This document shows positions 1 to 17,840 of a stretch of 20,878 bases of DNA, in pieces; position 1 is the first letter of the stretch, and the number at the start of each line of letters is the position of its first letter. The stretch is from IMG/VR virus record IMGVR_UViG_3300032562_000203, positions 1-20,878 of that record; one strand, given 5' to 3'. Both the position numbers and the translations under genes were made by a program. This stretch comes from a virus. The notes beneath the pieces were generated by a model. It searched no databases, was not told the origin of the DNA, and was given only the letters and a program-made list of their open reading frames with translations.

Positions 1-1353
1 CTGGGCCGGCAGGAGATTTATGGCGAGGTCATTGAAGACTTGGAGGGCGCGCTTTGGCACCGCGACACGCTCGAGGCCGGCCGGCTGAAGTACGGTGACA
101 TCCCGGACCTGGCGCGCATCGTCGTGGCGGTCGACCCGGCGGTCACGAGCGAAGCCGGCAGCGATGAGACCGGCATCATCGTCGCCGGTATCGACGACGT
201 GCCGCAGAGGGCGCAGGGCTACGTGCTCGAGGACCTCTCGGGCCGTCACACGCCGCAGGGCTGGGCGGAGCGCGCTGTTGCCGCCTATCACGAGCATGAG
301 GCCGACTGCATCGTCGCCGAGGTCAATCAGGGCGGCGACCTTGTGAAAGCCATGCTGCGCATGGTCGACCCCAGCGTGCCATACAAGAAGGTGACGGCGA
401 CGCGGGGCAAGTGGGTGCGGGCCGAGCCGGTCGCGGCGCTCTATCAGCAGGGGCGCATCCACCACGTCGGCATGCTGGGGCCGCTCGAGGACCAGTTGTG
501 TCTGAGTGCCGACACGCTCGTGACGACGAAGCGCGGGGCCGTTCGCATCGCCGAAGTGACGGCTTGCGACCGTGTGTTGACGCGCAAGGGCTGGCGGCGT
601 GTCCTGTGGTCTGGGCAGACGGGCACCGCTCCTACCATCGGCGTGAGGACGGCAGGCGGGCGCATACTGCGCGGCACGGCGAGGCACCCGGTATACGTCG
701 AGGGGCGCGGCTTCGTGGCCTTGTCTGAGGTACAGACTTACGATACATTGGCCGTATGCCGACGCCCATTGTCAGAGAGTTCGTGGCCTTCAACGGAGAA
801 CGCTACTTCCGCGACGACGACGGCTACTTCAAGACCTCGCGCACTCGTGGCCGTCGCCTGCTTCATCGCGAGCTGTGGGCGCATGCTCACGGGCCTATAC
901 CGCCGGGCTACGTTGTCCACCATCGCGACGGCGACCGGGGCAATAACGCACTCGCCAACCTTGAGGCCGTGTCTCGTGGCTGCCACGACCGAAGGCACGG
1001 CACATCAGACCGGCTCAACGCGCTTTGGTCAACAATCCAGCCGACTCAGCGAACGTGTCCCTGCGGGCGCACGTTCTGGTCGCGGGGCAGGAACACCACC
1101 TATTGCCCTGTCTGCCGACCTCGTGGCCGAAAGGTTGTCGAGCCGCCCGCCTGAGCCGGTGTTCAACCTGAGCGTCGAAGATGGGCACGAGTTCTTCGCC
1201 AGCGGCCTGCTCGTGCACAACTGCAACTTCACGCCCGACATCGACCGCAAGGTGATGGGCAGCCCCGACCGCGTCGACGCACTCGTCTGGGCGTTCTTCG
1301 ACCTTATCGTCAGGCATGGGCCAATCCGCAAGGCTACGCAGCGCAAGCTCTGA
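1..1353 (+). CDS. Terminase large subunit, C-terminal nuclease part, interrupted by an intein (5' partial)
   Basis: This is the DNA-packaging motor subunit that cuts concatemeric phage DNA. The reading frame is open from base 1 and begins with LGRQEIYGEV, a stretch typical of the end of the TerL ATPase domain. The true start and the Walker motifs therefore lie upstream, and the ATG at 40 is internal. The RNase H-like nuclease domain is visible: first acidic strand VVAVDPAV (about codons 40-47), second acidic motif IVAEVNQGG, and the last motif SPDRVDALVWAFF near the C-terminus. Codons 167-407 are an intein. Its removal would join LEDQL to CNFTPD, restoring a normal TerL sequence of 209 visible residues. 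The insertion lies between the second acidic motif and the final Asp motif, so the unspliced protein should lack nuclease activity. The stop is TGA at 1351-1353. Family call is from recognised motifs, and the order TerL-portal-MuF supports it. Confidence 0.93.
   Translation: MGRQEIYGEVIEDLEGALWHRDTLEAGRLKYGDIPDLARIVVAVDPAVTSEAGSDETGIIVAGIDDVPQRAQGYVLEDLSGRHTPQGWAERAVAAYHEHEADCIVAEVNQGGDLVKAMLRMVDPSVPYKKVTATRGKWVRAEPVAALYQQGRIHHVGMLGPLEDQLCLSADTLVTTKRGAVRIAEVTACDRVLTRKGWRRVLWSGQTGTAPTIGVRTAGGRILRGTARHPVYVEGRGFVALSEVQTYDTLAVCRRPLSESSWPSTENATSATTTATSRPRALVAVACFIASCGRMLTGLYRRATLSTIATATGAITHSPTLRPCLVAATTEGTAHQTGSTRFGQQSSRLSERVPAGARSGRGAGTPPIALSADLVAERLSSRPPEPVFNLSVEDGHEFFASGLLVHNCNFTPDIDRKVMGSPDRVDALVWAFFDLIVRHGPIRKATQRKL
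499..1221 (+). mobile_element. Intein in terminase large subunit (HINT splicing domain, 241 aa)
   Basis: The intein begins with Cys (TGT at 499), with block A reading CLSADTLVTT. Block B is GTARHPVYV, with the expected T-x-x-H. Block F is FNLSVEDGHEFFASG. Block G is LLVHN followed by Cys+1 (TGC at 1222). All residues expected for class 1 protein splicing are present, so splicing is probably active (inference). The N-terminal splicing part is about 86 residues (499 to about 755) and the C-terminal part about 24 residues (about 1150-1221). Between them the terminase frame stays open for about 130 codons, but that stretch reads as Ser/Thr/Ala/Arg-rich sequence with no recognisable endonuclease motif. 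The same DNA encodes an HNH protein in another frame. Without the linker this is a mini-intein of about 110 residues, near the lower size limit. TerL is a well-known intein host. Confidence 0.93.
756..1154 (+). CDS. HNH homing endonuclease nested out of frame inside the terminase intein
   Basis: This 132-residue protein is encoded in frame 3, while terminase and intein are in frame 1. The N-terminal part (EFVAFNGERYFR, then LHRELWAHAHGPIPPGY) and the HNH core VVHHRDGDRGNNALANLE match free-standing phage HNH endonucleases of the NUMOD4/HNH_3 style. The C-terminus carries a CxC...CxxC cluster (CPCG, YCPVC) that may bind zinc. Frame 3 has a TGA at 726-728 and no other usual start before ATG 756, so this start is fixed. 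Its TGA (1152-1154) falls exactly where intein block F sequence begins. No good ribosome site precedes it; the nearest GAGG is about 25 nt upstream. A TACGAT hexamer at 739-744 could be a -10 box for a nearly leaderless transcript, but that is weak. The expected role is cutting intein-less terminase genes to drive homing. Confidence 0.85.
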   Translation: MPTPIVREFVAFNGERYFRDDDGYFKTSRTRGRRLLHRELWAHAHGPIPPGYVVHHRDGDRGNNALANLEAVSRGCHDRRHGTSDRLNALWSTIQPTQRTCPCGRTFWSRGRNTTYCPVCRPRGRKVVEPPA

Positions 1354-1399
1354 GGAGTACACTCAGCTCGGGCGCGCTGACGGGTGAGGAGGCTTTCTA

Positions 1400-2878
1400 G
1401 TGGCTGACGCAGTGGATATGAGCGCGCAGGGCACCGTGCTCTCGCCCGATTCCGGGCAGCATCCGAGCGACCTGCAACGGGCGTTCGAGGCGGTCTACAA
1501 GAAGAAGCCGGTCTACGACACTGACTTCGCTTACTACGACGGCGACCAGCCGGTGGTTTACGCGACCGACATGCTCAGCGCCTACTTCCGCACCCTGAAC
1601 GCGCGCTTCGTCGAGAACTGGTGCGCGCCGGTAGTCGACGCCGTGCTCGAGCGCCTGACGCTCAAGGGCTTCGACGTGGCCGACGGCAATCAGGCCGCAA
1701 AGGAGATGCTCAACGACCTCATGCAGGGCGGCGGGCTCGAGCTAGAAGCCTACGACGTGCAGACCGCTGCCATCGTGACCGGCGAGGGCTCAATCATCGT
1801 CTGGCCCAGCGATGAGGACCCGGGCACCATCGACCTCTACGCCAACGACCCGCGACAGGTCGCCGTCTTCTACGACGAAGAGCGACCCAAGCGTATCGCC
1901 TTCGCCGGGAAGCTCTGGCGCAACCTGACGAGTGGCATCACCTACCTGAATCTCTACTACGACGACCGCGTCGAGCACTACAGGACGCGCACCGACAAGA
2001 AGCCGACCGAGTGGCGCGAGTTCGTGCCGCTGCCCGAGGAAGAGGGCGCGCCGGTCGAGCTGCACGAGTTCGGGCGCGTGCCTGTCTTCCACTTCCGGCG
2101 CAATCGCAGGCGGCTCTCCGGCGAGCTGCGCGGCAAGGTCATGCCGCAGCAGGATATGGTCAACAAGCTACTCGCCGACATGATGGTCAGCTCCGAGTTC
2201 GCGGGCTTCAAGCAGCGCTACGCCATCTCCAACGCCGACCTCTCCGACCTCGAGGCCGACGCCACGACGCTGTGGACCGTGCCGCCGGGGGCCGAGGGCG
2301 AGCAGCCCACGCAGGTCGGGCAGTTCGAGGCCACCGACCTGCAGAACTTCCTCTTCGCGCGCACGGCGCTGGCCGAGGGCATCGCCATCATCTCGCATAC
2401 GCCGAAGCACTACATGACCGGGGCCACCCAGCCCTCGGGCGAGGCGCTCATCGCCATGGATGCGCCGCTGACGAAGAAGGTCGCCCACTATCAGGAGCTG
2501 TTCGCCGCGACGTGGCGGGACCTCGCCATCTTCTACTGCCAGCTCAACAACATCGCCCTCGAGGCCAAGGACGTCACCGTCATTTGGGAGCCCGCCAACA
2601 TCGAGCAGCCGGAGACGACGAGCAACGTCGTCAAGAACCTCAACGCCGCCGGTATGCCTCTGACCACCGCCCTGCGCGAGTACGACGGCTGGGAGCCGAA
2701 TCAGCTCGAGCGTATGGCCGAGGATGAAAAAGAGGCCGCTAAGAACGCTCCGCCCTCGCTGGGGGAGATAGCCCTCAAGGCAGCCGGACAGCGCCTGAAC
2801 GGGGCTCCTGCGCCCGTGGCGGGCGTCTCTGCGCCTGCGCCCTTCCCGCCTGCGCCAGCCGCCGCCGCACAGGGCTAA
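1400..2878 (+). CDS. Portal protein (SPP1 gp6-like)
   Basis: This 492-residue protein would form the dodecameric ring at the capsid vertex through which terminase pumps DNA and to which the tail joins. Length, position after terminase and sequence features such as FRTLNARFVENWCAPVV, DMVNKLLADMMVSSEF and TPKHYMTGATQPSGEAL fit the SPP1 gp6-type portal family of actinophages. The start is GTG at 1400, chosen because GAGGAGG lies at 1386-1392, seven bases upstream. The C-terminal tail is rich in Ala and Pro (from about residue 465), as is common for portals. The gene ends three bases before the small membrane gene. Function is assigned by family resemblance and gene order. Confidence 0.9.
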   Translation: MADAVDMSAQGTVLSPDSGQHPSDLQRAFEAVYKKKPVYDTDFAYYDGDQPVVYATDMLSAYFRTLNARFVENWCAPVVDAVLERLTLKGFDVADGNQAAKEMLNDLMQGGGLELEAYDVQTAAIVTGEGSIIVWPSDEDPGTIDLYANDPRQVAVFYDEERPKRIAFAGKLWRNLTSGITYLNLYYDDRVEHYRTRTDKKPTEWREFVPLPEEEGAPVELHEFGRVPVFHFRRNRRRLSGELRGKVMPQQDMVNKLLADMMVSSEFAGFKQRYAISNADLSDLEADATTLWTVPPGAEGEQPTQVGQFEATDLQNFLFARTALAEGIAIISHTPKHYMTGATQPSGEALIAMDAPLTKKVAHYQELFAATWRDLAIFYCQLNNIALEAKDVTVIWEPANIEQPETTSNVVKNLNAAGMPLTTALREYDGWEPNQLERMAEDEKEAAKNAPPSLGEIALKAAGQRLNGAPAPVAGVSAPAPFPPAPAAAAQG

Positions 2879-2881
2879 GCC

Positions 2882-3010
2882 GTGACCGCTCTGCGGCTCT
2901 GGTACATGGACCTCGGGCCTGACGACCTGCAGGCCGTGAGCGTCGTGTGCTGGCTCGTGGTCGCCGTGGCGATGGGCTGGCTCATGGTGCTCCTGCTCGG
3001 TGAGCGATGA
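2882..3010 (+). CDS. Small single-span membrane protein between portal and MuF genes
   Basis: A 42-codon ORF starts at GTG 2882, three bases after the portal stop, and ends with a TGA that overlaps the ATG of the next gene (ATGA at 3007-3010). It exactly fills the gap, which argues that it is a gene. The first 17 residues are polar and amphipathic (LRLWYMDLGPDDLQ). Residues about 18-40 form one strongly hydrophobic segment (AVSVVCWLVVAVAMGWLMVL) followed by GER. I do not recognise a family. It could be a small membrane protein used in lysis or in assembly near the membrane, or a translational coupler for the MuF gene. No strong ribosome site is visible, so it probably depends on coupling to the portal gene. 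Confidence 0.6.
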   Translation: MTALRLWYMDLGPDDLQAVSVVCWLVVAVAMGWLMVLLLGER

Positions 3011-4296
3011 GCGCAGTCGCCGACTACATGGCGAGCTGGAAGGCGCTGCTCAAGGCGAGCGACGAGAAGACGACGCAGGTCATGGCCGACCACTACGTCG
3101 GCCTGCAGAGTGCGCTCAAGGACGCTATCGCCAAGTGCGTCGAGGACGTGGCGGCGGTGCAGGCCAAGGGCGAGACTCCGACGCTGGGCCTGCTGCACAA
3201 GCTGGCGACCTACCGCTCGTTCGAGACTCAGGCAGCCGAGCAGTACGCCGAATACGGCAAGTGGGCGCAGACCGCTATCGAGGGCGTGAAGGTCGCCAGC
3301 GGCAAGGCCGGGGCGATGGCCGCGAGCGAGGCTGTGGGCAAGGGGGGACTCGAGGTCGGCGTGAGTGAGGAGGACGTGCAGGCCGCTGCTGCCGCCGTCT
3401 TCAACGAGGCCGCAGCCACGCAGGCGGCGGCGTCGACCAGCGGCGGACCGCTCGGCGAGCTGCTCAATCAGGGCTACGGGCTCATGCAGCAGACCATCGC
3501 GCAGAAGCTCATCGACGGCATCGCGCTGGGCAAGAGCCCGATGGAGGTCGGCGCGGAGGCGAGCGACTCGCTAGGGGTCGGCCTCGACCGCATCCTGACC
3601 ATCGCCCGCACGGAGATGAATGGGGCCTACCGCGACTCGACCATGGCCTCGTACCGGGCGAGCGACGTGGTCGAGAGCTACGTGCGGATGAGCGCCCGGG
3701 ATGAGCTTGTCTGTGAAGGCTGCCTCGCCGCCGACGGCGACCAGTTCGATTGTGACATCGACCCCGACGACCACCCGAACTGCCGCTGCACGGTGGTGCC
3801 AGTGCTGCGTGGGGAGACGCTCGACGACCTCGGGCTCAGCGACTCGCGTTCGTGGTTCGACGAGCAACCGGAGAGCGTGCAGCGCGGCATCATGGGACCG
3901 GGGCGTCTGGCGCTCTACCAGCAGGAGAACGATGGGCTGGGGCGGCAGATGCTCTGGGACCGCATGGTCAGCCGCACGGTGCACCCCGATTGGGGGCCGA
4001 ACCTCAAGCTGACGAGCATCGCCGACCTGAAAGAGGGGCTGGGGGGCCTGCCCGTCGACGGCCTGCCGACGCCGGACCATCCGCTCGGCGTCAACGCCAT
4101 GCCGCACTACCCGGGCAGCATGTGGACGCCCGCCGATGAGCTGGGCAAGAGCGCTCAGGAGCTGGCCGACTTCATCGCGACCGACGAAGGGGCCAAGGCC
4201 TTCGTGCAGGCCGTGGACGCGGCGCTCGGCATCGGGCCCTCGCTCAATCAGGACGCTCCAAGCATCAGGAACCCTACCCGGGCGACCACGGCGTGA
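3007..4296 (+). CDS. MuF-like minor head protein
   Basis: This 429-residue protein belongs to the Mu gpF / SPP1 gp7 family, which is packaged in the head and associates with the portal. The MuF domain spans about residues 195-262: ILTIARTEMNGAYRDS, then CEGCLAADGDQF and DDHPNCRCTVVPVL, the usual Cys pair and H-P-N-C-R-C motif. The N-terminal 190 residues are helical. After the MuF domain comes a common extension (WFDEQPESVQRGIMGPGRLALY). The start ATG overlaps the upstream small gene's stop. The last residues look wrong: from about 4257 the coding-like frame is frame 3, giving a plausible tail that ends at an ATGA overlap with the next gene. The annotated frame instead stops at 4296 and leaves a 49-base gap. 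A one-base indel near 4252-4263 would explain this. Confidence 0.88.
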   Translation: MSAVADYMASWKALLKASDEKTTQVMADHYVGLQSALKDAIAKCVEDVAAVQAKGETPTLGLLHKLATYRSFETQAAEQYAEYGKWAQTAIEGVKVASGKAGAMAASEAVGKGGLEVGVSEEDVQAAAAAVFNEAAATQAAASTSGGPLGELLNQGYGLMQQTIAQKLIDGIALGKSPMEVGAEASDSLGVGLDRILTIARTEMNGAYRDSTMASYRASDVVESYVRMSARDELVCEGCLAADGDQFDCDIDPDDHPNCRCTVVPVLRGETLDDLGLSDSRSWFDEQPESVQRGIMGPGRLALYQQENDGLGRQMLWDRMVSRTVHPDWGPNLKLTSIADLKEGLGGLPVDGLPTPDHPLGVNAMPHYPGSMWTPADELGKSAQELADFIATDEGAKAFVQAVDAALGIGPSLNQDAPSIRNPTRATTA

Positions 4297-4349
4297 CCTA
4301 CCAGTACGACCGCTACTCGGGGCTGCGGCGTCCGGCGTGGGCGCTATGA
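4257..4349 (+). pseudogene. Out-of-frame C-terminal remnant of the MuF protein
   Basis: Frame 3 reads KHQEPYPGDHGVTYQYDRY and then SGLRRPAWAL with a TGA at 4347-4349. Its codons are overwhelmingly G/C-ending, as in the real genes here. Its stop makes the ATGA overlap typical of this operon with the zinc-ribbon gene (ATG 4346). This looks like the original C-terminus of the MuF protein, now out of frame after a small indel. No slippery heptamer is seen at the junction, so programmed frameshifting is less likely than mutation or a base-calling error. Confidence 0.45.
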
Positions 4350-4555
4350 GCGTCGCCGTGCGCTGCCCGTTCTGTCGGCTCACGTTCGAGCACGCCGACA
4401 ACGCGCCGCTCGCCGACCGGCAGGTGATGACCTGCCCAGCCTGCGGGGCGCAGAGCGGCTACGACCTGCGCTGGAGCCGCTACATCGGCAAGGCCGACCT
4501 CGCCGCCAACATCGCCCCGGAGTACGCCAAGGAAGCCCGCCGAGGCGGCACGTAA
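4346..4555 (+). CDS. Small zinc-ribbon protein in the head gene cluster
   Basis: A 69-residue protein with two CxxC knuckles: CPFC at about residues 9-12 and CPAC at about 32-35, spaced as in a zinc ribbon. The tail is basic and polar (GYDLRWSRYIGKADL, EYAKEARRGG). The frame is open further upstream, but ATG 4346 is preferred because the sequence before it resembles another frame's coding DNA and the ATG forms an ATGA overlap. Zinc ribbons of this size bind nucleic acid or protein. Its place between the minor head protein and scaffold suggests a role in head assembly or late gene control, but no function can be assigned. Confidence 0.7.
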   Translation: MSVAVRCPFCRLTFEHADNAPLADRQVMTCPACGAQSGYDLRWSRYIGKADLAANIAPEYAKEARRGGT

Positions 4556-10288: not shown

Positions 10289-12059
10289 AGAAATCATTAT
10301 CCGCATCAAGGCGAGCGCCGCCGGGGTCGGGGCGACGCTCGACAAGGTCAAGCACGACGTCAAAGGCGTTGAGGACCAGGCGAAGACGTCGAAGAAGGGC
10401 ATGAGTGGGCTCTTCGCCGGCGTCGGCGCCGGCTCTGCCGTGGCCGCCGGGGCGCTGGGCGTGGTCGGCGGCATAGCACTCAAGGGCGCGGAGGCCTTCC
10501 AGAACTACGGCGGCGAAATCAAGGGCATCCAGAGGATGCTCGGCGACTCGAGCCAGCAGGCGAGCTTGCTCGCTGGTCAGTGGGAGCTGAGCAACGTCGC
10601 GGTCGACAAGGGCACCCTCGGCATGAAGATGTTCCAGAAGAACCTCTACGGGGCGCAGCAGGCGCTGACCGACAATACGCCGAAGGTGCTCGCCGCCCAG
10701 CAGAAGATATCCGCGCTGCAAGCCGAGTACGCGAGGAAACCCTCGGCCTCGCTGCAACTGCAAATCGAGAAGCTGACCGCCGGCCTCGCCGGTATGGCGA
10801 CCAAGGGCAGCCCGGCGCTCAAGTACCTGACCTCCATCGGCGTCAGCATGAAGGACGCAAGCGGCCACTGGCTCTCCGGCGAGGCGGTCATCGAACAGGT
10901 GCGCGGCAAGCTCGCCGGGATGACCTCAGCGACCGAACGCACGGCGCTGGCGCAAGCGCTCTTCGGCAAGGGCGGCGCGGCGATGCTGCCATGGCTGATG
11001 AAGTCGAACAAGGCGATTGCCGACCAGACGCAGGAGGTCAAGGGCCTGGGACTCGTTTGGAGCCAGGCCGACATGACCAAATTCGGCACGCTGCAGCAGG
11101 CGTCCGACTCGATGAAGCTCGGCATGGAAGCCCTGCAGGTCAAAATCGGCATGCTGGTCATCCCTATCGTGAACAAGCTCATCCCGGCCTTCACGTCGGT
11201 CGTGACGTTCCTGACCAAGCTGCCGGGCGGCTTTTGGAAGACGGCGGCGGCGGTCGTGGGCCTTCTGGCGGGCGTCAAGCTCCTGCATACCGGGTTCACC
11301 ATCGCGAAGAACGCTATGGAGATGTACAGCGGCGTCTCGGGCACGCTGAACAAGCTGCTGGGCGGTTCGGCCAAGGCGACCGAAACGCTGGCGACGACAG
11401 AAGGCGGCGAGGTCGTGGCCTCTGACGCAACGACCGCCTCGCTCGGCGCGCAGCTCGTGTCCCTAGGGCTGCTGCTTACCGCGCTGGCGGCAGCGGCGGT
11501 CGCTATCTACGCCATCGTGAAGGCCTACCAGTCGTGGAAGAAGGCGGCAGACGAAGCGGCGAAGGCGGCGAAGAACGCGAAGGATGAGGTCTACGACAGC
11601 GGCCCGGCGGCGAAGAGGCGGCAGGCTGAGGTCACCAAGCTGCGCGCCGAACAGGCCCACGGCATGAAGCTCACGCCCGACCAACTCGACTTCCTCAAAA
11701 CCGTCGATAGCTGGGGCAAGACGGTCGACCAGTCGAGCTACAAGGCCCCGCAGGGGATTGGCGGCTGGGCGAAGGCGGCGCTGGGCGGTATGTGGGACAG
11801 CTCCTATGGGCATATCGTGAAGAAGCACGCCGCTGGTGCCGACTTCATCACGTCGGGGACCACGCCGATGATTGTCGGCGAGGCCGGGCCTGAGCGCGTC
11901 ACCGTGACGCCGCTCGGCAAGGGGCACGGGGGGGGCGACGTCCACGTCCATATCGGGCAGGTCATCGGCACCGACTCGGCCTCGGCGCGGGCCTTCGCCG
12001 CGACCGTCGCGAACCTCGTCATGGTGAGGCAAAAGCGGCAAGTGGCGACGGGATTCTAG
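10278..12059 (+). CDS. Tail tape measure protein
   Basis: A 593-residue protein that sets tail length. At roughly 1.5 angstrom per residue it predicts a tail near 90 nm. Parts seen: N-terminal helix (EEIIIRIKASAAGVGATLDK), hydrophobic segments at about 50-70, 321-343 and 390-415, and long Ala/Gln/Lys helices. The tape-measure core has TALAQALFGKGGAAMLPWL at about 222-240, the typical A-L-F-G-x-x-G motif. A C-terminal block ADFITSGTTPMIVGEAGPER leads to VHVHIGQVIG, a common tape-measure ending. No lysozyme or peptidase domain is apparent. GTG 10278 is chosen because GGAGG lies about six bases upstream and it overlaps the T frame. Confidence 0.92.
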   Translation: MTLEEIIIRIKASAAGVGATLDKVKHDVKGVEDQAKTSKKGMSGLFAGVGAGSAVAAGALGVVGGIALKGAEAFQNYGGEIKGIQRMLGDSSQQASLLAGQWELSNVAVDKGTLGMKMFQKNLYGAQQALTDNTPKVLAAQQKISALQAEYARKPSASLQLQIEKLTAGLAGMATKGSPALKYLTSIGVSMKDASGHWLSGEAVIEQVRGKLAGMTSATERTALAQALFGKGGAAMLPWLMKSNKAIADQTQEVKGLGLVWSQADMTKFGTLQQASDSMKLGMEALQVKIGMLVIPIVNKLIPAFTSVVTFLTKLPGGFWKTAAAVVGLLAGVKLLHTGFTIAKNAMEMYSGVSGTLNKLLGGSAKATETLATTEGGEVVASDATTASLGAQLVSLGLLLTALAAAAVAIYAIVKAYQSWKKAADEAAKAAKNAKDEVYDSGPAAKRRQAEVTKLRAEQAHGMKLTPDQLDFLKTVDSWGKTVDQSSYKAPQGIGGWAKAALGGMWDSSYGHIVKKHAAGADFITSGTTPMIVGEAGPERVTVTPLGKGHGGGDVHVHIGQVIGTDSASARAFAATVANLVMVRQKRQVATGF

Positions 12060-12060
12060 G

Positions 12061-13803
12061 ATGACCCTGACGGTCCACTACGCGCCCGGCCGGGTGCTAC
12101 TTAGCTGGGACGCCGCGCTCGGCCCGACGTGGTCGAAGGCGCAGGAGGGCAACAACCCCGAGCGGAAGAAGTACCTGCGCACCTGTGAGGTGTGGCGCTG
12201 CGCCAACGCGGTCGACGGGCGTGCGCCCGCCGTGAAGCTCGGCGAGAGCGAGGCCGAGGCGTGGTTCGACACGGACGTGCCGAACGAGGCGCACCTCAGC
12301 TATTGGGTCCTAGAGCAGACCGCCACGGGGCTCCGCCAGATAGGACCGACCGTTGATGTGGTGATGCCGCAGGCCAGCTCTGGCGACCATCTTTCACGCG
12401 CAGACGTGACGCCGCCCAGCGCGCCGCAGGACCTTGTCGCGTGGGTCATCCCGGCAAGCACCGTGCCGGGCTCCTACCCCATCGGCAACCTGCTGGAGTG
12501 GTCGCCATCGGCAGACGCTGAGTCGGGCCTGCTGGCGTACCTCCTCTACGACTCGAATCAGGACCAACCGGACAGCGTCATCTGGGCGAACATCGAGGCG
12601 GGCGAAAAGGTCGCCGAGTTCCTCGACCGCTCGCCGGACACCGGCAAGGGCTACGAGCTGGCAGCCATCGACGTGGCGCTCAATCTCTCCGACCGCGTCG
12701 GGCCTGTGAAGCCGCAGCCTAGCGGCTGGACGGCATACGAGTTTCTGGTCGACTCCGCCTTCGAATTGAAGCCGCACAAGAAGGTCCGCGCCGACGTGCT
12801 ACTCGTCGGTGGCGGCGGCTCGGGCGGCGGCGGCTTTCAGGGCGGCGGCGGCGGCGGCGGCGGCTTCCTCGACGTCCACGACTTCGTGATTGACTCAGAT
12901 GTCACGCCGGGGACCGTGACAGTCGGAGCCGGAGGGGCCGCGCCGGACCTGCTAGGGACCGGAGCCAACGGGGGCGAGTCGTCTTACGCCGATATGAGGG
13001 CTTATGGCGGCGGCTTCGGCAGTTCGGAATGGTACGACTGGGACAAGGGGCACAGCGTTGTCGTGGACGCCACGGACGGCGCATCCGGCGGCGGCGGCAG
13101 CCCGTGGGGCAAGTGGATTGGCGGAAATCCCGGACAGGCACAGCACTATGAGGGACCGGGCGGCAAGGCCACGCACGGAGACCAAGGCCACGACGGGACG
13201 GACGGCAACGGCTGGACTGCGTGGGTGAATCACACCGCCGGAAGCGGTGGCGGGGCCAACTGGCCGGGCTACCAGCCGAACAGTGACATCGGACCCGTCG
13301 GGGGCCTCGGCAGGCCGTGTGACATCCTCGGGTGGGGACCCTTCTTCGCCGAGTCTGGGTTGAGGTTCATCTCGTGGTACGCGGGCGGCGGCGGTGGCTG
13401 CGAGCGACCTAACAACTGGGGCTATCCCGGCGGTCTGGGCGGCTACGGCGGTGGCGGCGACCCAGGCAATCCGGGAGTGGACGGTCTGGGCGGCGGCGCG
13501 GGCGGCAATGGGGCCATGGGTCCCGGCCACAACGGCGACGCGCCGGGCACGAAGGGCGGAGATGGCTGCGTGGTCATCCGCATCCCGACTCACGACGTGC
13601 GCTGGGTGACCTACCCGCTGCCCATTGGCAGGGACGAGAACGGCGACGACGTGTACCCCGACGGTATCCACGTCGTGAAAATCCCGATGGACCAGCCGCA
13701 CCTAGACGAAATGGGGAGCGAGCCGGTCGTGGTGTGGCAGAGCACCCCAGCGGGCGGCGACCACCACGGCTGGGACGGCACCTTCGAGCCGGGGGACTTT
13801 TGA
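12061..13803 (+). CDS. Minor tail protein: FnIII-like domains plus a glycine-rich adhesin domain
   Basis: A 580-residue protein starting one base after the tape measure stop. Residues 1-110 are beta-rich (MTLTVHYAPGRVLLSWD... LSYWVLEQT), resembling a fibronectin type III unit. Residues about 116-215 form a second FnIII-like unit (TPPSAPQDLVAWV, LLEWSPSADAESGLLAYLLY). From about 240 to 508 the chain is extremely glycine-rich, opening with ADVLLVGGGGSGGGGF and closing with GGDGCVVIRIP. This opening and closing pattern is typical of tail-tip glycine-rich domains thought to pack as polyglycine II bundles. A 70-residue C-terminal segment follows. In many siphoviruses this position holds the distal tail protein, so the gene order is unusual. 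It is likely a tip or host-contact protein. Confidence 0.75.
   Translation: MTLTVHYAPGRVLLSWDAALGPTWSKAQEGNNPERKKYLRTCEVWRCANAVDGRAPAVKLGESEAEAWFDTDVPNEAHLSYWVLEQTATGLRQIGPTVDVVMPQASSGDHLSRADVTPPSAPQDLVAWVIPASTVPGSYPIGNLLEWSPSADAESGLLAYLLYDSNQDQPDSVIWANIEAGEKVAEFLDRSPDTGKGYELAAIDVALNLSDRVGPVKPQPSGWTAYEFLVDSAFELKPHKKVRADVLLVGGGGSGGGGFQGGGGGGGGFLDVHDFVIDSDVTPGTVTVGAGGAAPDLLGTGANGGESSYADMRAYGGGFGSSEWYDWDKGHSVVVDATDGASGGGGSPWGKWIGGNPGQAQHYEGPGGKATHGDQGHDGTDGNGWTAWVNHTAGSGGGANWPGYQPNSDIGPVGGLGRPCDILGWGPFFAESGLRFISWYAGGGGGCERPNNWGYPGGLGGYGGGGDPGNPGVDGLGGGAGGNGAMGPGHNGDAPGTKGGDGCVVIRIPTHDVRWVTYPLPIGRDENGDDVYPDGIHVVKIPMDQPHLDEMGSEPVVVWQSTPAGGDHHGWDGTFEPGDF
12841..12861 (+). repeat. (GGC)7 trinucleotide repeat in the glycine-rich tail gene
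   Basis: Seven perfect GGC units encode consecutive glycines. Replication slippage here would change the number of glycines by whole codons without breaking the frame, so length variation between isolates is plausible. Confidence 0.9.
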
Positions 13804-16268: not shown

Positions 16269-17840
16269 ATGACCTACAACGGCGAAACCCCGTACAGCGA
16301 CGGTGCCTACACCGTCCAGAAGTTCCTGCAGAGCGGCAGCTTCATCACGCCCAGCGGCGTCACCGAGGCCGACGAGATATGCCTCGTGGCGGGCGGCGGC
16401 GCGGGCGGGACGTGGGTCGGCGGCGGAGGCGGCGCAGGCGGTGTGCGGGTCGAGAGCGGCATCGCTCTGAGCGGAACAATGGCCGTAGTTATTGGCGACG
16501 GCGGCGCGGCTCCTACCGCGAACGGCGCAGGGGACGACGGCGACGACTCGACCTTCGCCGGGTACACGGCGAAGGGTGGTGGCGGCGGAGGCTGGTACAA
16601 CAACGGTGGGAACATGGACGGCAGGCCGGGCGGTTCCGGCGGTGGCGGTGCATGGGGAGTTGGTCACGGTGCGGGTGGTGCAGGAACGACGGGGCAGGGG
16701 ACGGACGGCGCGATGGGCGCGCCGGCAGACGCGGGCGGCGGTGGCGGCGGGGCGAGCGCCGCCGCATATGGAGATACCGGCGGAGCCGGTACCGACTTCC
16801 ACGGCACGACATACGGCGGCGGTGGTGGCGGAGCAGGTCCAAGCGGTGGCGCTGGTGGCGCTGGTGGCGCGGGCGGTGGCGGTCACGGTTCCGACCACTC
16901 GACCACATCCAAGACCGCCACAGACGGCACGCCGAACACCGGCGGCGGCGGAGGCGGCGCCTGGTACGCGCCGTACAGCAGCTTCGGCGGCGCGGGCGGC
17001 TCCGGTGTGCTCATCATTCGCTACCTCACGCCGGGCGTCCCGACGACGCAGCTCCCGCTTACCAGCGGGTATCGCACGCGCTCATTGCACCCGCTCGACC
17101 TGCTCAGCAAGTACAAGACGCACCGGGGGCCTCACTGGAGGCTGACCCTGCGCTCGGCGTACTCGACGTCTCGCCTGCCGCCGGTACAGGTCGCATCGGT
17201 GGCGCTGGCGAGCCTCTACCGGACCGGGAAGCGGCCGGACGCGGTCAGGAGTACGTTGCTGAGCGCCTTCGGGACGCACTCGCTGACGCGGGGGGCGCTG
17301 GCCTCTGCGTACCGCACCGTGAGCGTGCATCGCGTGCGCCTGACGCTGGCCGGGAGGTACAGGACGGGGCATGCGACCACGCTGACCCTGCACAGCCTAT
17401 TCGCCACCGAGTGGCGCGGAAGGGAGCCGGGCGACGTGAGAACGGTATTCGAGGTCAACGGCATCAACCTGAACGACGGCGTGCATACGTTCGTGCAGCC
17501 GGGAGCGAATCTGGGTGCGGAGGAACAGCAGTACGACCTCATCCTCCACTACGATGCCAGCCTGCGGCAGCACAACGTCCACGGCGTGCCGGTGCAGATG
17601 AACGTGCCGGTCAAGTTCGTCTTCGCCACGGCTCCCGAGCTAAGCTCCTTCGTGGACGGCGTGCGCGAAAGCATCAAGGGCGGCGGCTACGCCATTTGGC
17701 AGGACGGCGGGGATGAGCTAGGGGAACCCGAGTACTTCAAGCTCCTGCAGGACACCTCGCCTGAGCCGCAGCGGGACTTCGCCTATCGCAAGCGCAACGT
17801 CGCCATCTACACCCTGACCATGATGAGGTTCCCGCGATGA
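16269..17840 (+). CDS. Glycine-rich tail protein with L-x-S-x-Y-R-T repeats and a Dit-like C-terminal domain
   Basis: A 523-residue protein in three parts. Residues 1-258: a glycine-rich domain that opens FITPSGVTEADEICLVAGGGA and closes GGAGGSGVLIIRYLTPG, like the one in the gene at 12061. Residues 264-380: eight degenerate repeats with consensus L-x-S-x-(Y/F)-x-T, spaced 14-19 residues. Residues about 393-523: FEVNGINLNDGVHTFVQPGA and onward, ending YRKRNVAIYTLTMMRFPR. This resembles the N-terminal domain of distal tail or similar ring proteins in actinophages, where I-N-G-V-x-L-N-D-G is typical. It starts six bases after the upstream stop and ends in an ATGA overlap. It is likely a tip adhesin anchored by its C-terminal domain. 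Confidence 0.65.
   Translation: MTYNGETPYSDGAYTVQKFLQSGSFITPSGVTEADEICLVAGGGAGGTWVGGGGGAGGVRVESGIALSGTMAVVIGDGGAAPTANGAGDDGDDSTFAGYTAKGGGGGGWYNNGGNMDGRPGGSGGGGAWGVGHGAGGAGTTGQGTDGAMGAPADAGGGGGGASAAAYGDTGGAGTDFHGTTYGGGGGGAGPSGGAGGAGGAGGGGHGSDHSTTSKTATDGTPNTGGGGGGAWYAPYSSFGGAGGSGVLIIRYLTPGVPTTQLPLTSGYRTRSLHPLDLLSKYKTHRGPHWRLTLRSAYSTSRLPPVQVASVALASLYRTGKRPDAVRSTLLSAFGTHSLTRGALASAYRTVSVHRVRLTLAGRYRTGHATTLTLHSLFATEWRGREPGDVRTVFEVNGINLNDGVHTFVQPGANLGAEEQQYDLILHYDASLRQHNVHGVPVQMNVPVKFVFATAPELSSFVDGVRESIKGGGYAIWQDGGDELGEPEYFKLLQDTSPEPQRDFAYRKRNVAIYTLTMMRFPR
16845..16871 (+). repeat. Three tandem 9-bp units (GGTGGCGCT) in the glycine-rich domain
   Basis: GGTGGCGCT occurs at 16845 and 16854 and nearly perfectly (last base G) at 16863, encoding Gly-Gly-Ala three times. 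It is an in-frame slippage-prone tract. Confidence 0.9.
17058..17408 (+). repeat. Eight degenerate protein repeats L-x-S-x-(Y/F)-x-T
   Basis: The units are LTSGYRT, LLSKYKT, LRSAYST, LASLYRT, LLSAFGT, LASAYRT, LAGRYRT and LHSLFAT. Aromatic residues sit at 268, 282, 298, 317, 334, 348, 364 and 378 of the protein starting at 16269. The DNA has diverged, so the repeats are old or under protein-level selection. The tract links the glycine-rich domain to the C-terminal tail domain. Basic residues are abundant (Arg, His, Lys) and acidic residues almost absent. Confidence 0.75.

Follow-up and report, generated by a model that had tools for sequence, protein, structure and literature searches.

The window, as we call the whole 20,878-base stretch of DNA that we analyzed, is the record of an uncultured virus. 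It opens inside a gene for the large terminase subunit, whose 5' end is lost at the contig edge, and portal, head, and tail genes follow downstream. Frame 1, the terminase frame, is open across positions 1-1353, and within it lie an intein and, in a different frame, an HNH endonuclease open reading frame (ORF). The features of the locus are as follows.

1-498, plus strand: N-extein, the C-terminal nuclease part of the large terminase subunit
499-1221, plus strand: intein in the terminase frame, 241 residues from Cys1 to His-Asn
499-750, plus strand: N-terminal splicing half with blocks A and B (Cys1, TARH); family HMM 4e-24, pLDDT ∼97
751-1155, plus strand: intein linker in the terminase frame, stop-free; predicted to be mostly disordered, with the open frame retained in relatives
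756-1154, plus strand: HNH endonuclease ORF, 132 amino acids, frame 3, ATG to TGA, between the splicing halves
1156-1221, plus strand: C-terminal splicing half with blocks F and G and the His-Asn end; TIGR01443 (full protein), family HMM 4e-11, pLDDT 93-98
1222-1353, plus strand: C-extein, from Cys+1 to the end of the terminase (CNFTP...SPDRVDALVWA), placed by alignment to intein-less terminases

The N-extein matches Pfam Terminase_6C (1.4e-15) and the PHROG terminase large subunit (3.5e-27). The coordinates and splicing motifs of the intein are those given by an earlier, sequence-only reading of this DNA, with the boundaries now set by extein alignment: when the exteins are joined in silico, their alignment with the intein-less TerL proteins of Roseobacter phage CRP-6, Bacteriophage sp. 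103231, and Streptomyces phage mu1/6 has no gap at the junction, which fixes the boundaries and provides the empty site that matches an in-frame insertion in a host protein. Every hallmark of a class 1 intein is present: Cys1 (499-501), the TxxH of block B (here TARH), block F (PVFNLSVEDGHEFFA), a terminal His-Asn within the C-terminal end LLVHN, and Cys+1 at 1222. Of the NCBIfam intein signatures, TIGR01443 (C-terminal) scores above its cutoff and TIGR01445 (N-terminal) exactly at its cutoff. The AlphaFold2 model of the intein has the Hint fold and matches the Mtu RecA, DnaB, and gp41-1 inteins; pLDDT is 90 to 98 in the splicing halves and ∼45 in the linker (mostly 38 to 55, with a short helical stretch near 70), for which we found no conserved function in the terminase frame. 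From what is known of the family, we infer that this intein splices. It does not belong with split inteins or fractured genes, whose halves lie in separate ORFs, because a single frame is open from 1 to 1353; neither is it a canonical endonuclease intein with both activities in the same reading frame, because the HNH ORF lies in host+2 and has its own start and stop.

The sequence-only reading had also described a complete HNH ORF filling the linker in another frame, which we confirmed: the protein matches Pfam HNH_3 (8.7e-15; 54.5 bits against a cutoff of 24.8) and PHROG HNH endonuclease families (best match, 3e-16). Relative to the terminase frame its register is host+2, equivalent to −1. 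It consists of an HNH core, with invariant residues H55, H56, D58, N68, and H77, followed by a C-terminal zinc ribbon (CxC...CxxC). The predicted model (mean pLDDT, 89) has the homing enzyme I-HmuI as its top fold match by both Foldseek and VIA-align (Z of 7.9, which is middling; rmsd of 2.9 over 72 residues), and I-HmuI is the best sequence match as well; rows from annotated records were left out of the alignments used for structure prediction. The ORF begins with ATG, and no Shine-Dalgarno sequence was seen upstream of 756 in the window.

Elsewhere in the window, the products of 12061-13803 and 16269-17840 both match phrog_2295, whose function is not known, and are likely encoded by paralogous tail-region genes. 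A short ORF at 4136-4555, which overlaps the preceding gene, weakly matches (0.0034) a Lar-like restriction alleviation protein.

Recurrence of the nested layout

Scanning with one protein, the complete intein, as the query returned no matches, so we looked for relatives through the HNH instead; none of the scans made found a close relative of the window element. A search of phage records located the HNH within annotated terminase genes of Tetrasphaera phage TJE1, Rhodobacteraceae phage LS06-2018-MD07, and Acinetobacter phage Highwayman. All three carry the two intein halves (IntN and IntC) in the terminase frame and the HNH in host+2, as in the window, and their records name only a terminase at this locus. 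The sequence-only reading had pointed to TerL inteins of other phages as the place to look for the same layout, and it is widespread there: scans of viral contigs and prokaryote genomes gave 172 loci with an HNH match, which at 90% identity comprise 68 nested loci (a single open frame with both IntN and IntC, HNH in host+2), ∼22 fractured loci (IntN and IntC in separate ORFs, HNH between them), and 46 without intein halves. Two loci, L029 and L030, were set aside as chance, their first residue being Thr and their frame host+1. Overall, nested HNHs form 161 clusters at 80% identity that range from 28 to 71% GC, 53 of them below 40%.

Nested loci are uniform in architecture. Cys1, TxxH, and the terminal Asn are present in all 68, the +1 residue is Cys (62 loci) or Ser (6 loci), and the start and stop of the HNH keep conserved positions relative to the splicing blocks. 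Among 55 host proteins scanned, 52 match a PHROG large terminase family and 53 match Pfam Intein_splicing; LAGLIDADG_3 is also matched by one of the 55. The insertion falls at several TerL positions, in most nested loci at the terminase nuclease motif D(N/H)H|C-x-D-A-x-R-Y; the site in the window differs (LEDQL|CNFTP). A terminase-like ORF at 62-3709 of IMGVR_UViG_3300017991_000034 contains two IntN matches, which suggests two inteins. In Mycobacterium phage Frankie, an HNH gene annotated as intron-associated lies on the opposite strand within the lysin A gene region (2348-2836).

How prevalent the layout is was judged from a sample drawn at the splice site. An intein-first scan yielded 75 nested loci out of 77, but its profile included the linker and was thereby biased, so we did not use it for prevalence. 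A profile of IntN only was too variable for scanning, and we turned instead to a DNA pattern for the splice junction at the TerL nuclease motif given above; because this pattern covers the junction only, the resulting sample is independent of linker content. It comprises at least 80 loci, 72 of them complete among the matches listed (redundancy retained). Among these listed matches, 59 of the 72 are nested (40 clusters at 80% identity), 8 are fractured, the HNH separating the halves, and the other 5 are mini-inteins whose linkers have 19 to 28 residues. The sequence-only reading had held that relatives with the HNH in frame with the intein would speak against it: an in-frame endonuclease was found in none of the 72 complete loci among the matches listed. 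TerL mini-inteins without the HNH and with linkers of ∼19 to 28 amino acids (L248, L256, L278, L284, L302, and L313) are natural comparators for the nested form.

Fractured loci also occur in named phages: in Lactobacillus phage CL2, Brochothrix phage BL3, and Vibrio phage 1.245.O, the ORF carrying terL and IntN stops and the HNH ORF comes next. In CL2 and BL3 a further ORF after the HNH matches IntC; in 1.245.O, the HNH is followed by an annotated hint-domain protein. These fractured terminases are recorded as ordinary large terminases.

Judged by this recurrence, which extends to well over a hundred other phages, the nested layout is no accident of a single sequence but a genuine type of mobile element that has largely been overlooked.

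Register, initiation, and selection on two frames

The HNH lies in the −1 frame of every nested locus, as it would if −1 ribosomal frameshifting from the terminase frame, rather than internal initiation, gave a terminase-IntN-HNH fusion. We consider this unlikely. In-phase slippery heptamers occur in 10 of the 68 nested loci versus 4 in the control phase, a weak excess; most loci lack slippery sites, however, and several of the sites that do occur fall within the HNH core. Start signals are instead enriched where the HNH begins: near the start of the HNH core, ATG is found in the HNH frame at 49 of the 68 loci, the counts for comparison being 12 (host frame), 31 (third frame), and 7 (further downstream), and a Shine-Dalgarno run of at least 4 at proper spacing accompanies 21 of the 49, versus 4.5 expected. 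Moreover, the −1 register is accounted for by stop avoidance. Synonymous shuffling of the HNH in the 68 loci predicts 156 stops in host+2, where none is observed, and 1362 in the other shifted frame; host+2 is the only register low in stops and thus the only one that can be kept open.

The HNH might also be a domesticated helper of terminase packaging, of the HK97 type, and not a homing enzyme. HNH genes beside terL are common, free-standing HNH genes related to ours flank terL, and HNHs of the HK97 type help in cos cleavage, as PMC10448857 discusses. We nevertheless think such a role quite improbable for the nested HNH, which sits within an intein, at several TerL positions, and whose best fold match is the homing enzyme I-HmuI; in addition, the mini-inteins among the listed junction matches (5 of 72 complete loci) do without it, and intein-less terminases exist.

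In GC-rich DNA alternative frames tend to stay open, so that the open terminase frame could be meaningless and the overlap due to chance. For the window by itself this argument holds: when the codons of its HNH (∼65% GC) are shuffled synonymously, the terminase frame is stop-free in 72% of cases (P = 0.72), and stop-free runs of at least 130 codons are common in all six frames. The sequence-only reading, in taking the stop-free frame in the window as evidence of dual coding, therefore overstated an argument that is weak by itself. Dual coding itself stands, through the relatives. Across the 161 nested clusters the terminase frame contains no stops versus 291 expected, and only 29.5 clusters are expected to be fully open by chance; the layout also persists at 28 to 40% GC. 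As nested loci are defined by their open frame, a non-nested control is needed: 39 related HNH genes, either free-standing or fractured, contain 224 stops in the same +1 frame versus 223.8 expected. At the level of the family, chance is thus refuted, and we give it almost no credence. On the evidence of these counts, selection is shown to keep the host frame open, and dual coding is demonstrated by the relatives and not by the window alone.

Selection is seen in the HNH frame as well. Relatives with a stop-filled HNH frame would, by its own account, have spoken against the sequence-only reading; in the nested relatives the HNH frame is intact. In close pairs, substitutions fall mainly at HNH third positions and HNH dN/dS is 0.07 to 0.37, which shows, for the sequences compared, purifying selection on the HNH. 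Naive linker dN/dS in close pairs is 0.6 to 1.7, a ratio that is distorted by the overlap and shows no more than that the linker can drift freely in sequence. One locus in the nested register, in IMGVR_UViG_3300037487_001798 (IntN, 10336-10587; HNH, 10617-11222), has an intact HNH and many host-frame stops between IntN and IntC; it is a possible intermediate on the way to a split intein.

That two indels near 750 and 1150 displaced an ordinary in-frame HNH intein is scarcely credible: two single-base errors could yield the pattern in a single uncultured virus record, but the same register, with conserved HNH start and stop positions, recurs in the records of three named phages and in more than a hundred further contigs, and the TerL junction has no in-frame version among the matches listed.

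A probable composite element and its relation to known systems

We think it very likely that the locus is a composite mobile element whose overlapping frames encode protein splicing in one and DNA cutting in the other, and that it is probably mobilized by an internally initiated HNH. Ribosomes translating terL would make a terminase precursor containing the class 1 intein, and the intein halves (499-750 and 1156-1221), with the flexible linker between them, would excise in cis and restore the terminase. Initiation at or near 756, in the −1 frame of the linker DNA, would yield the separate 132-residue HNH; what is known of the family suggests that the window phage produces it. By analogy with intron and intein endonucleases, the HNH would cut terL copies without the insert, and repair after cutting would copy the entire 723-bp element into terL. 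Homing of this kind is presumed from the family, with the patchy distribution of the element as indirect support.

HNH divergence correlates more with that of TerL (rho = 0.45) than with that of the splicing half (rho = 0.12), which fits an HNH adapted to its terminase target or, alternatively, a splicing half too short for signal. The HNH and the splicing half may thus not always travel together, with the same proviso that the half is short and may lack signal. In an HNH tree, which is unrooted and weakly supported, nested forms are widely spread, fractured forms are clustered, and free-standing forms are mixed in. The order of events proposed by the sequence-only reading, a free-standing HNH entering a mini-intein, is one possible course among these forms.

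A broader generalization, which we would put at even chances, is that overprinted inteins with a −1 homing gene prevail at the catalytic motif of phage terminases, that selection on both frames keeps them stable, and that loss of the open frame may give rise to split inteins and a separate endonuclease. Unlike the same-frame inteins of textbooks, such an element would derive splicing and homing from a single stretch of DNA as two separate proteins, either of which can evolve or be lost and leave the other as it is, while the HNH sequence would be confined to versions that leave the host frame stop-free. The nested loci are a large natural set for the study of overlapping genes, their layout suggests a possible route for the origin of split inteins, and they reveal endonucleases that annotation conceals (TJE1, LS06-2018-MD07, and Highwayman).

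By profile, the window HNH belongs to the same family as free-standing HNHs beside terL in Pseudomonas PAE1, Acinetobacter BP10, and Exiguobacterium EauM-23; these, however, are not nested, have no detected intein, and contain stops at expectation in the +1 frame. I-HmuI, its nearest match, is likewise an HNH homing endonuclease but is encoded in a group I intron, whereas an RNA family search of the window, introns included, gave no match. The endonuclease of an intein is normally continuous in frame with the splicing domain. Classical inteins such as PI-SceI share the splicing fold and blocks with the window element and have their endonuclease in the loop that joins the halves; in the window, the endonuclease has a gene of its own, read in another frame. 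Among solved inteins, gp41-1 (6qaz, 2e-19) is nearest to the splicing domain by sequence profile; like other split inteins, it reportedly comes from fractured phage genes (work attributed to Dassa and colleagues, 2009). In several relatives of the window element the gene is fractured and the HNH lies between the halves, but the terminase frame is unbroken in the window and most relatives, so that they would splice in cis.

The closest precedent is the ShiLan element, an out-of-frame HNH inside an insertion in an actinophage DNA methylase (Arsenault et al. 2025, PMC11855218). There too, a shifted-frame HNH, thought to be a homing enzyme and with no clear ribosome site, occupies an insertion that is open in the host frame. 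Its authors found no intein or intron splicing domain, and the insertion is thus thought to remain in the methylase (PMC11855218); the window differs in its terminase host and in the canonical splicing blocks that flank the HNH. The same paper cites, for overlapping frames, a preprint on actinobacteriophage inteins of non-canonical architecture (bioRxiv 10.1101/2025.01.02.630785); it may describe similar inteins, which limits any claim of novelty. We found no other reports of an overprinted homing gene in an intein in the open-license literature. We describe the terminase element as an intein with a homing gene overprinted in another frame.
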